Part shown: positions 35,147 through 38,052 of the stretch, piece after piece | Layout: the number at the start of each line of letters is the position of its first letter | Numbering within the stretch: position 1 is the stretch's first letter | From: Chromohalobacter nigrandesensis | Lineage (GTDB): Bacteria; Pseudomonadota; Gammaproteobacteria; Pseudomonadales; Halomonadaceae | DNA: 64,000 bases | Direction of reading: 5' to 3' | Assembly (NCBI RefSeq): GCF_023061285.1 | Contig: NZ_JAKGAM010000007.1 | Location: 62,001 to 126,000, forward strand | Program-made: the position numbers and the translations under genes | Notes under the pieces: model-generated | What the model was told of the DNA's origin: nothing | What the model saw: the letters and a program-made list of their open reading frames with translations, nothing else | The model's database searches: none

Positions 35147-35285
35147 TCGTAAGCGCTCTATCGAATATGTGAAAAAGCATATACGAAATTTGCAATAGAC
35201 ACGTTTCACCAGACGGGGAGAAGGTAATCCAACAGATGTGGTGCCTTTCACGGCATCCGGCACAACAACAAACGGAACCCACAAC

Positions 35286-36887
35286 ATGCTTCGACACTCG
35301 CATACCCTACTCGGCGCCATGGCGCTGTCTTCTCTGTCATTGACGTCTCTAGCCCTGGCAACACCGGCCCAGGCCGAGACACTGAATATCGGCGTCATGG
35401 GTGAACTGGCGTCCTTCGACACCTCGCAGGTGTCCGGCGGCGTCTGGGAATCCCAGGTGTTGATGGATGTCTACGAAGGCCTGCTCAAGAAAAACCCCGA
35501 GGGCGAGGCCATCCCCGGCATGGCCACCGATTGGGAGATTTCCGAGGACGGCAAGGCCTACACCTTTCACCTGCGCGACGATGCCAAGTGGTCCGATGGC
35601 GAACCGGTCACCGCAGAGGATTTCGTGTTCGGCTGGCAACATCTGCTCGACCCGGCCAGCGCCTCGAAATACGCCTATCTGCTCTACCCGATCAAGAACG
35701 CCGAGACGGTCAACGTCGGCGACAAGCCGCTCGAGGCGTTGGGCGCCGAGTCACTGGACGGCGGCAAGACCCTCAAGGTCACCCTCGAGTCGCCGACACC
35801 GTTCTTCCTGCAGCTACTGACCCACTACACCGCCTATCCCTTGCCCAAGCATGCCGTCGACGAATACGGCAAGAAGTGGGTCAAGATGGACAACATCGTC
35901 ACCAACGGTGCCTTCGAGCCGGCGGAATGGATCTCCCAGTCACGTATCACCGTCGAGAAAAACCCCGAATACTATGACGCCAGCGAGGTCAGCCTCGACA
36001 GCGTCAATTACTTCAATACCGAAGATCGCAATGCTGCCATCTCGCGCTTTCGTGCGGGTGAGCTGGATATCATCCGCGATTACCCCTCGAGCCGTTACCA
36101 GTGGCTCGAGGAAAACCTGCCAAAGGCCACCCACCTGAGCCCGATGCTGGGGACCTACTACTACGTACTCAATACTCGCGAAGGCCGACCGACCGCCGAC
36201 AAACGTGTCCGGGAAGCATTGAACCTGGTCGCGCGCCGCAAGGTGCTCTCCGAGCAGATCATGGCCGGCAGCTTCAAGGACGCCTACTCGCTGGTCCCGC
36301 CCGGCACCAGTCATTATGACGTCCAGCGCATGGACGGCGTCGACGGCGATTACGCCAAGCGCCTGGCCAAGGCCAAGCAGCTAATCGAAGACGCCGGCTA
36401 CGGCCCCGACAACCCGCTGCATCTGCAGTTGCGCTACAACACCTCCGACGAGCACAAGAAGATCGCCATTGCCCTGGCGGCGATGTGGAAACCGCTGGGT
36501 GTCGAGGTCGAAATGACCAATGCCGAAGCCACCGTCCACTACCAGACCATCCAGGAAGGTGACTTCGACGTCGCTCGCGCCGGCTGGATCGCCGACTACA
36601 ACGATGCCGAAAACTTCCTGACGCTGCTACGCAGCGGCGTCGGCAACAACTACGGCGGCTACGACAACGCCGAGTACGACAAGCTGCTCGACCAGGCCGC
36701 CAGCACCCTGGATCTCGACAAGCGCGAGGCGCTCCTCGAGGAGGCCGAGAACGTCGCCCTCGACGACTACGCCCTGGTGCCATTGCTCTACTACGTGACG
36801 CGCAACCTGGTGAACCCCGATATCAGCGGCTGGCAGGACAACGCCGAGGATGACCATCCTTCACGTTGGGTGCAGTTCTCTGAGTAA
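35286..36887 (+). CDS. oppA: Oligopeptide ABC transporter periplasmic binding protein
   Basis: 533 residues from the ATG at 35286. The signal peptide MLRHSHTLLGAMALSSLSLT, then SLALATPAQA, is cleaved before ETLNIG; there is no lipobox. Family-5 solute-binding fold: DWEISEDGKAYTFHLRDDAKW, then SDGEPVTAEDFVFGWQHL near residue 85, YPLPKHAV, and VKMDNIVTNGAFEPAEW. It most resembles OppA/MppA oligopeptide binders. It heads oppABC(DF). A structured element separates it from oppB. Confidence 0.92.
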   Translation: MLRHSHTLLGAMALSSLSLTSLALATPAQAETLNIGVMGELASFDTSQVSGGVWESQVLMDVYEGLLKKNPEGEAIPGMATDWEISEDGKAYTFHLRDDAKWSDGEPVTAEDFVFGWQHLLDPASASKYAYLLYPIKNAETVNVGDKPLEALGAESLDGGKTLKVTLESPTPFFLQLLTHYTAYPLPKHAVDEYGKKWVKMDNIVTNGAFEPAEWISQSRITVEKNPEYYDASEVSLDSVNYFNTEDRNAAISRFRAGELDIIRDYPSSRYQWLEENLPKATHLSPMLGTYYYVLNTREGRPTADKRVREALNLVARRKVLSEQIMAGSFKDAYSLVPPGTSHYDVQRMDGVDGDYAKRLAKAKQLIEDAGYGPDNPLHLQLRYNTSDEHKKIAIALAAMWKPLGVEVEMTNAEATVHYQTIQEGDFDVARAGWIADYNDAENFLTLLRSGVGNNYGGYDNAEYDKLLDQAASTLDLDKREALLEEAENVALDDYALVPLLYYVTRNLVNPDISGWQDNAEDDHPSRWVQFSE

Positions 36888-36948
36888 GGACACCTTTGCA
36901 CAACCTACAAGTGAAAGGTGGACGCCGAGAGCAAACCGAAGCGAGGGT

Positions 36949-37022
36949 CATTCGTCATGGCCGGAAAACAGTTCCCGACTTTTCCGGCATTTCCGCCATC
37001 CATGGCGGTCAGATGACGAATG
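36949..37022 (+). ncRNA. Predicted three-way-junction RNA fold between oppA and oppB
   Basis: P1 is a perfect 10-bp closing stem (CATTCGTCAT 36949-36958 with ATGACGAATG 37013-37022). Inside it are P2, a perfect 9-bp stem (GCCGGAAAA 36960-36968 with TTTTCCGGC 36980-36988, 11-nt loop), and P3, a 6-bp stem (CCGCCA 36993-36998 with TGGCGG 37003-37008, 4-nt loop). It lies in a 238-nt intercistronic gap. It may protect the oppA transcript 3' end, act as a cis-regulator of oppBC, or be a repeat element; I do not recognise a known family. Confidence 0.55.
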
Positions 37023-37125
37023 TAGCGCCCAAGGATGGGGTCACAGCGCCCTCGCGCAGGCTTGCTAGCGGACCAGTCCATCCCTGTGATACCGCCCCGT
37101 CTGCAGACGATGTACGGAATGCCCC

Positions 37126-38052
37126 ATGCTGACCTATACCCTGAAACGCCTGCTGATGGCGATTCCCACCCTGCTGATCGTGATCACGATCTCGTTTTTC
37201 CTGATGCGCGTGGCGCCGGGTGGGCCGTTCGACGGCGAGCGCCAATTACCCCCGGAAATCGAGGCCAACCTCAAGGCGGCCTATCACCTCGATGAGCCGT
37301 TGCCCCAGCAATACCTGCGCTACATGGGCAATTTGTTGCAGGGGGATTTCGGGCCGTCGTTCAAGTACAAAGATTTCTCGGTCACCGAGCTGATCGCTCA
37401 AGGCTTTCCGGTGAGTCTCGAGATCGGCGGCCTGGCCATTCTTCTTGCGCTGTTGATCGGGCTTCCGCTGGGGATCATCGCGGCCCTGCGGCGCAACTCA
37501 GGTGTAGATTACACGGTCATGGGCACGGCATTGGCAGGTATCGCAGTGCCCAACTTCGTGATCGCGCCGATCCTGGCGCTGGTATTCGGCGTCCTGCTTG
37601 CCTGGCTCCCCGCCGGCGGCTGGAACGGCGGCGCCCTGCCCAATCTCGTGCTGCCGGTGATCGCGCTGTCGATCCAGCAGATCGCCTATATCGCACGCAT
37701 GATGCGCGCCAGCATGATCGAGGTGTTGGGCAGTCACTACATTCGCACGGCGCGTGCCAAGGGGCTTTCCGAGCGCCAGGTGATCTGGCGCCACGCCATC
37801 CGCCCGGCGCTGCTCCCCGTGACGTCCTACCTGGGTCCGGCAATCGCCGGCATCATCACCGGCTCGGTGGTGATCGAGCAGATCTTCGGCATTCCCGGCA
37901 TCGGCCGCTACTTCGTGCAGGCCGCGCTCAACCGCGATTACACCCTGGTGATGGGCACGGTGGTGTTCTACGGCGCACTGATCGTGCTGATGAACCTGCT
38001 CGTCGACCTGCTTTATTCCGCACTCGATCCGCAAATCCGTTATGACGACTGA
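37126..38052 (+). CDS. oppB: Oligopeptide ABC transporter permease OppB
   Basis: 308-residue inner-membrane permease with six membrane segments. N-terminal MLTYTLKRLLMAIPTLLIVI is typical of DppB/OppB. The EAA loop that meets the ATPase is YIRTARAKGLSERQVIWRHA near residue 206. FGIPGIGRYFVQAALNRDYT near residue 257 is a further hallmark. Confidence 0.95.
   Translation: MLTYTLKRLLMAIPTLLIVITISFFLMRVAPGGPFDGERQLPPEIEANLKAAYHLDEPLPQQYLRYMGNLLQGDFGPSFKYKDFSVTELIAQGFPVSLEIGGLAILLALLIGLPLGIIAALRRNSGVDYTVMGTALAGIAVPNFVIAPILALVFGVLLAWLPAGGWNGGALPNLVLPVIALSIQQIAYIARMMRASMIEVLGSHYIRTARAKGLSERQVIWRHAIRPALLPVTSYLGPAIAGIITGSVVIEQIFGIPGIGRYFVQAALNRDYTLVMGTVVFYGALIVLMNLLVDLLYSALDPQIRYDD

Follow-up and report, generated by a model that had tools for sequence, protein, structure and literature searches.

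A mobile-looking structured repeat in the oppA-oppB gap of Chromohalobacter nigrandesensis, related to YPAL/RU-2 and TwoAYGGAY and carrying a predicted CsrA-type loop

The intergenic gap between oppA and oppB in Chromohalobacter nigrandesensis contains one copy of a dispersed repeat, with a common fold that is preserved by compensatory base changes, loops of fixed sequence, a location at the 3' ends of genes with a bias toward the sense orientation and a patchy presence within a single genus. It is homologous to the TwoAYGGAY RNA, to the RU-2 repeat and, on the antisense strand, to the small RNA Ysr224. We consider it probable, taking the explanation as a whole, that the gap acquired an inserted copy of a MITE-like YPAL/RU-2 - TwoAYGGAY element, which provides a 3' structure favoring the oppA mRNA and presents a CsrA-type site. 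Everything in this explanation that goes beyond a conserved fold on the mRNA strand is what we infer.

The fold in the oppA-oppB gap

The window, a stretch of 64,000 nucleotides to which all positions refer, contains oppA at 35238-36887 (forward strand, with the start of a mechanically called ORF) and oppB at 37126-38052 (forward strand). The gene names are those of the initial annotation, and the 238-nt gap that it described between the end of oppA at 36887 and the ATG of oppB at 37126 is confirmed. OppB is 97-99% identical to its homolog in named Chromohalobacter. The three-way junction proposed at 36949-37022 proved to be exact in every pair: the 10-bp closing stem joins CATTCGTCAT (36949-36958) to ATGACGAATG (37013-37022) with 10/10 pairs, the 9-bp stem joins GCCGGAAAA (36960-36968) to TTTTCCGGC (36980-36988) with 9/9 pairs, and the 6-bp stem joins CCGCCA (36993-36998) to TGGCGG (37003-37008) with 6/6 pairs. 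Such complementarity had been judged unlikely to occur by chance, and none of 200 dinucleotide shuffles equaled the minimum free energy of the 74 nt (-34.4 kcal/mol, z -5.34). In the minimum free energy structure, the second stem forms 8 of its 9 pairs and is rearranged at the top.

The pairing extends beyond the reported junction. An inner stem, seen in the fold of the locus and in alignment A3, is formed by GCGAGGG (36941-36947) and CCCTCGC (37049-37055), and an interrupted outer stem, with the same two sources of support, is formed by CCGAGAGCAAACC (36925-36937) and GGCTTGCTAGCGG (37059-37071). An additional hairpin, CCC-AAGGAU-GGG (hairpin B, 37028-37039), closely follows the junction. The whole repeat begins 34 nt after the oppA stop codon and spans 36922-37078 on the forward strand, as bounded by the covariance model R1, and the real insertion ends may lie somewhat outside. 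It scores 92.0 bits with R1 and 67.9 bits with R2, a model built from elements of other families only.

Aligned copies from this genome and genus show the layout of the short form: an outer stem, the inner stem GCGAGGG/CCCTCGC, hairpin A with a loop that is mostly AUGGAU, and hairpin B (CCC-ANGGAN-GGG). The three-way junction corresponds to hairpin A of the long form. Four copies (L216, L217, L018 and L033) make up a subfamily with longer common ends, AACTCATTTCC...GAAACTCTAA, which are imperfect inverted repeats, and from their sequences the full mobile unit is likely to be this longer-ended form.

The initial annotation recognized no known riboswitch or repeat family in the fold. This holds for riboswitches: no Rfam family reached its gathering score in the window, by which a riboswitch or other Rfam family was rejected as the identity of the gap, and a lax Rfam scan of the gap gave a single weak match to a microRNA (E 0.2). 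It does not hold for repeats, as the element belongs with YPAL/RU-2 and TwoAYGGAY.

Copies within and beyond the genome

Used as a query against its own genome, the oppA-oppB gap matched nine other places, all by its second half, and BLAST searches identified the element in 10 of 10 genomes of the genus, this one included. R1, built from 19 short copies of which seven come from this genome, located 14 places in the genome (E 2.4e-15 or better), in addition to six reverse-strand shadows of the same places (E 5e-4 or weaker). In a census at E<=1e-5 with strict filters, R1 identified the element in 103 of 151 genomes of the family and in 24 of 369 genomes of the class, 22 of which lie outside the family. 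The elements underlying R2 had been found and aligned with R1; in a search of 136 kb, R2 recovered all 14 copies of this genome, that of the window among them, and three other element-bearing loci, and nothing else.

A few arrangements are worth recording. Inverted pairs of elements, 86-87 bp apart, were observed in two genomes (G229:C71:12109-12409 and G466:C361:4379-4676), and eight of the distant elements listed, on contigs of G217, G229, G423 and G466, start 44-249 bp from the contig start, as if adjoining another repeat. One copy with a long outer stem (L035, G008:C278) appears to lie inside or beside a stretch of low complexity that may be coding.

The 14 copies speak against the opp-specific fold implied by the initial annotation, which had offered an attenuator or an sRNA target among the possible roles. 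A cis regulator dedicated to opp (attenuator, riboswitch or sRNA target) would be in keeping with a strong fold inside the opp operon, but the element is found behind other ORFs at 13 further places in the genome, and R1 detects it in 4 of 80 named oppB loci, 77 of which have an oppA-like gene upstream. Besides the lack of an Rfam riboswitch, no intrinsic terminator is present in the gap, which speaks against an attenuator of the intrinsic-terminator type, and the single terminator match lies inside oppB. The census of copies thus largely refutes a dedicated opp regulator, which we regard as highly improbable.

Covariation and conserved loops

According to the initial annotation, the fold should recur in homologs with compensatory changes. 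It has indeed been maintained for a long time with double changes, on the strand of the oppA mRNA. Alignment A3 consists of 78 rows, 3 of which are reverse-strand shadows; 98.2% of its cells are paired, and both-side changes were observed at 26 of 29 pairs, including all 10 pairs of helix 1, the outer stem. Its covariation is 0.602 compared to 0.172 after shuffling (0/500) and <=0.092 with the partners slid, values that are biased toward the structure because alignments A1 and A3 were selected by or fitted to R1. In 13 of the 14 copies of this genome, individual folds revealed self-complementary outer stems whose sequences differ widely between copies. The minimum free energy fold of L226, another copy of this genome, lacks the common outer stem when computed with 45-nt flanks.

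While the stems vary, the two apical CANGGANG loops are constant: ANGGAN occupies loop 1 in 70/74 forward rows of the short form, and loop 2 in 72/75 forward rows. Across the 20 rows that represent other families, conservation at the C, A, GGA and G of each loop mostly reaches 90% or more, whereas nearly all stem positions are below 70%, and little is fixed in these 20 elements beyond CANGGAYG, AGC, CCANGGANGG and the tail UUNACNGCG.

During replication, template-switch correction of quasi-palindromes keeps the two arms complementary without any function. Such correction, rather than selection, could have produced the covariation in the stems, but unpaired linkers are also retained and the loops are strand-specific, and we find this origin decidedly unlikely.

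The 51-nt module of the long form

The opp site of another genome of the genus, G002, carries a short element, in which DNA matching positions 3-73 and 125-238 of the query is directly adjacent (BLAST). Because the short element joins these flanking pieces, the window copy holds a 51-nt module (36961-37011) in loop A, splitting it as AUG^GAU. We read the three-way junction, from this sequence comparison, as a long variant with the module inside the first CANGGANG loop. Module hairpin 1 (GCCGGAAAA...TTTTCCGGC, 36960-36988) has the loop UCC on the plus strand and GGA on the minus strand, and module hairpin 2 (CCGCCATCCATGGCGG, 36993-37008), which is nearly invariant, reads CCGCC-AUGGAU-GGCGG on the minus strand, with a CsrA-type loop. 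Since both hairpins show GGA on the minus strand, the module, which is a repeat in its own right, resembles an additional two-GGA unit that has been inverted.

With the junction as query and at most six matches scored per genome, matches were obtained in 54 of 151 genomes of the family, with at least 1-6 in each, some of them partial. Among the loci listed, the module was found by eye inside hairpin A of the element in 30 of 31, with L117 lacking the 3' part. It also occurs in another frame in G024, G034, G130 and other genomes, for example behind the hairpin TTGCGA-CATGGATG-TCGCAA. In 42 junctions, double changes were observed at 6 of the 10 pairs of the closing stem, 88.4% of the cells are paired, and the covariation is 0.252 compared to 0.087 after shuffling (0/500); hairpin 2 is scarcely variable. 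The loops were counted on the minus strand in 48 junctions, a set that excludes L285 and L280: hairpin 2 reads CC-AUGGAU-GG in 43 and the loop of hairpin 1 contains GGA in 46 (43 by script, before L122, L123 and L129 were re-anchored).

At one locus, L276 (G048:C1), two junction modules stand in tandem, and hairpin 2 of the first has diverged (CCACCCTCCTTGGTGG). We also considered whether module hairpin 2 (CCAUCC) contacts hairpin B (GGAUGG) loop to loop; such a contact fits the window copy and was dropped as no clear rule emerged. Counted by eye, 14 of 30 long copies (excluding L117) have GGAU in loop B, and 24 of 72 ANGGAN loops contain it.

Placement relative to genes

Thirteen of the 14 copies in this genome are preceded by a gene in the same orientation, whose stop codon lies 17-159 nt upstream, and the remaining copy is antisense, 30 nt from a stop. 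We collected another 96 copies, almost all of which belong to other genera of the family, and could classify 94 of them by the orientation of the flanking genes (++ 50, −− 18, +− 23, −+ 3). Genes were called with a simple script based on ORFs and GC position that ignored ORFs across an element; the context loci are mostly top-scoring matches, and the control gaps were drawn from the same loci, including this genome. Divergent gaps are avoided (p 0.0003), accounting for 3 of 94 copies compared to 12 of 52 control gaps, and sense copies outnumber antisense copies (50 compared to 18, p 0.0001), although both p-values are optimistic given that many family loci are orthologous or come from related genomes. 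The count omits three copies of the genus (L069, L081 and L082) and two opp copies (L104 and L105), while its long set still includes the genus copies L106 and L121. The usual distance from stop codon to element is about 30 nt in either orientation.

Of 18 elements from other families, 11 were sense and 7 were not, a strand bias short of significance (p 0.48), and 2 of the 18 lay in divergent gaps; the placement result therefore rests on the Halomonadaceae. Near what appears to be the same gene end in different Chromohalobacter genomes, L004 on the one hand and L017 and L023 on the other carry the element in opposite orientations and with different outer stems.

Mobility and the opp site across genomes

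The copy C45 of this genome has a clean empty site in two other genomes of the genus, G007 and G006, in which the flanks are joined with 4 and 7 nt between them, a difference of about 173 bp; it is also absent, less tidily, from G003 and G005. The C45 copy and its closest paralog are homologous over 169 bp (88.8%), up to nearly these borders. Gain rather than precise loss would be the simpler reading of this locus.

The four oppB loci with an element detected by R1 belong to C. sarecensis, which has the long form, and to C. israelensis, Halomonas sp. EAR18 and Halomonas sp. KAO, which have the short form. No element was found in the opp gaps of the close Chromohalobacter loci L134, L135, L137 and L138, and in Chromohalobacter sp. 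296-RDG and 11-W the gap measures 58 nt and lacks the element. Two of these Chromohalobacter species (L137 and L138) have instead a different gap of 100 nt, with the hairpin TGCCGCACTC...GAGTGCGGCA and a loop with CCTTCCATGG. Against a role at opp, this copy is not retained from one species to another, and its long form is without one of the two loops. Because of the empty site at C45 and the missing opp copy in close relatives, the element family looks mobile. Terminal direct repeats were not in clear excess among 70 loci (mean longest flank match 5.71 compared to 5.45 in mismatched pairs); a 9-bp sequence, CCCAGTGAT, flanks the opp copy of G002 (L081).

A serious rival, which we rate as less likely than a role for oppA, is that the element is a selfish passenger, a non-autonomous mobile element that is tolerated behind stop codons, has no effect on opp, and uses its fold and loops for its own transposition. 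Presence and absence within the genus, at opp as well as at C45, is what this predicts, and so are the many copies in some genomes and the lack of a conserved target gene. The stems differ from locus to locus and nevertheless stay paired via double changes, whereas a dead insert would lose its pairing; nor would tolerance alone lead us to expect a sense bias of 50 to 18. Repeated insertion of diverged versions, combined with an insertion bias, could nonetheless yield both the pairing and the bias.

Another rival places the function at the level of DNA, with the hairpins acting as extruded single strands for a transposase or another DNA-binding protein, as in REP/RAYT systems. Strand-specific fixed loops and covarying stems would suit the recognition of single-stranded DNA equally well, antisense copies do occur, and of the 19 genus copies in A1, 18 have a GTAG ahead of hairpin B. 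Yet the GTAG is not retained in other families, the orientation tracks transcription more often than not, and a search for the Y1 (RAYT-type) transposase (PF01797) gave 0 matches in this genome and matches in 5 of 14 controls, on which ground a RAYT/REP identity was rejected. We hold recognition as DNA to be unlikely.

CsrA-type loops and a proposed role

An ANGGAN loop placed directly on a C-G-closed stem has been described as the high-affinity loop for RsmE, and one CsrA dimer as bridging sites 10-63 nt apart (PMC4005645, PMC7652899). Hairpin B at 37028-37039 presents the ANGGAN hexaloop on a stem that characterizes CsrA/RsmE ligands, the two GGAs of the short opp copy are 22 nt apart and hence within the bridging range, and csrA is present in this genome. 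These features suggest that a CsrA-type regulator could bind the exposed loop or loops. On the other side, the SELEX ligands of CsrA are described as having mostly four or fewer contiguous pairs, very stable stems being perhaps disadvantageous (PMC7652899), and in this light the approximately eight pairs of hairpin A count against binding. The conserved AGC and UUNACNGCG outside the loops are unaccounted for by CsrA, and the antisense copies between co-directional genes (18 of 68) are unexplained by a purely sense CsrA site. A literature search for CsrA combined with 3'UTR returned no paper.

Our preferred reading, an element with a role for the oppA message, can be laid out as follows. Being mainly located behind stop codons, such elements would be transcribed as a long hairpin topped by two small CANGGANG-loop hairpins, and the opp copy is probably a structured tail on the oppA message. 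Of the roles offered in the initial annotation, protection of the oppA 3' end seems the most natural one in cis. The element would be transcribed within the oppA-oppB mRNA as an intercistronic hairpin and could block 3'-to-5' exonucleases, so that the oppA part of the message is favored; the binding protein might then be produced in excess of the membrane parts, by analogy to the REP behind malE. Binding of CsrA to the exposed loop or loops may link the fate of the message with the Csr system, or CsrA may be titrated in this way. In the window copy, the module has displaced loop A, which would leave hairpin B as the only CsrA-type site and sole CANGGANG loop on the mRNA strand, where short copies would offer two; the module itself would present two GGA loops on the opposite strand.

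More speculatively, in a reading that we hold to be rather unlikely, a class of mobile DNA in the Gammaproteobacteria may spread ready-made pairs of CsrA-binding hairpins into 3' untranslated regions, such that transposition rewires the Csr network and the copies serve as a dispersed CsrA decoy. In the Halomonadaceae, an inverted two-GGA module in the first loop would add CsrA-type loops on each strand, and a copy could then work in either direction of transcription.

Relation to known RNAs and repeats

The TwoAYGGAY model (RF01731) was run on elements of other families found with R1 and gave 44.0 bits for L103 (gathering score 43), 40.4 bits for L089 and 38.3 bits for L098. In 24 genomes, 22 outside the family and two of the family, it gave hits at E<=0.01 in 10 and over the cut-off in 3, with 12 hits in G336, 11 of them above the cut-off; the genome-wide counts are lower bounds, as G497 was missed even though its L103 scores 44.0 bits. 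The hits of R1 and RF01731 coincide at five sites, spread over four genomes (G204:C110, G204:C62, G251:C164, G437:C2:326340 and G466:C361:4571). No RF01731 match was obtained at 36880-37130 up to E 5, on four loci of this genome up to E 0.5, or in the whole genome at E<=1, where control genomes gave none either. The window copy thus falls short of the gathering score that its distant relative L103 exceeds. Nor does it have both loops of TwoAYGGAY, loop A being split and hairpin B (AAGGAU) alone left, while short copies carry both in the wider ANGGAN form. Its homology to TwoAYGGAY runs via intermediate sequences, through the coincidence of R1 and RF01731 and the 67.9 bits obtained with R2. TwoAYGGAY itself has been listed as a probable RNA for which a cis-regulatory role is improbable (PMC2864571), and described as a predicted CsrA binder based on its loop motifs, with a poorly conserved outer stem (PMC4333381).

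The Ysr224 model (RF02770) gave hits in 37 of 369 genomes at E<=0.001, reached its gathering score in 0 of the 369, and had no match in this genome at E<=0.001. All 12 Ysr224-model loci that were fetched contain an R2 element on the opposite strand, 11 of them also with R1.

The published RU-2 sequence scored 47.1 bits (E 4.7e-12 for 5 Mb) against an HMM of 20 elements from outside the Halomonadaceae and 32.9 bits against an HMM of all 75 rows, and did not match an HMM restricted to the 55 Halomonadaceae rows; the comparison with RU-2 used sequence HMMs alone, and its link to the window copy is indirect. As controls, RU-3 gave no hit and the few shuffles reported scored 1.0-1.6 bits. RU-2 contains both loops (CAAGGATG and CATGGATG, 24 nt apart), AGC and UUUACGGCG. 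It is described as a mobile Yersinia repeat of about 168 bp, RU-2/YPAL (PMC2759123), and YPAL, the Yersinia palindromic sequence, as a mobile element for which empty sites and target duplications of 3-26 bp are known and which perhaps affects the stability of upstream transcripts (PMC2229807). Membership of the element in YPAL is supported by this homology to RU-2 and by the empty sites, at C45 in G007 and G006 and in the 58-nt opp gaps.

We conclude that YPAL/RU-2, TwoAYGGAY, a predicted CsrA binder, and Ysr224, which reads the strand opposite to the GGA loops, are one family. Their union gives TwoAYGGAY a natural history, as a mobile element behind stop codons, and YPAL a testable RNA partner in CsrA. 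The Rfam model misses the Halomonadaceae branch, in which copies are numerous, and the short and long forms at the same opp site provide a natural experiment. Among the articles listed in a literature search for each name, none joined the three; listings of the literature on repeats in Halomonas and Chromohalobacter offered nothing that we recognized as the present element, and two papers on repeats name neither genus.

The element resembles TwoAYGGAY RNA (RF01731, clan CL00106) in combining two GGA hairpins with an outer stem of poor conservation, but hairpin B is shorter in the alignments, the window copy lacks loop A, and the copies of this genome are unmatched by RF01731. The likeness to the Yersinia sRNA Ysr224 is that its model reads the antisense strand of the element, even though no hit exceeds its gathering score and none occurs in this genome. 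With YPAL/RU-2 the element shares a similar size (about 173 bp for the C45 copy), empty sites and an intergenic location; in contrast, the target duplications reported there have no general excess here, and the nested module is absent from the passages that describe YPAL (PMC2229807, PMC2759123). REP/RAYT systems are defined by a palindrome of 20-40 bp with a GTAG tag at its foot (PMC3733652), unlike the present element, which is longer than 100 bp, has no such GTAG palindrome and no general GTAG, and is without a Y1 transposase. The CsrA/RsmE hairpins of RsmZ and the glgC leader resemble it in having ANGGAN hexaloops on a C-G-closed stem, paired at bridging distance, but here the loops sit behind genes and within repeats, and their binding is predicted. 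The setting is like that of the REP behind malE in the malE-malF operon, likewise a hairpin in the gap after the binding-protein gene of an ABC operon, although the two sequences are presumably unrelated and this genome has no RAYT. A REP placed in the malE 3'UTR has been reported to raise MalE in E. coli (PMC4942690).
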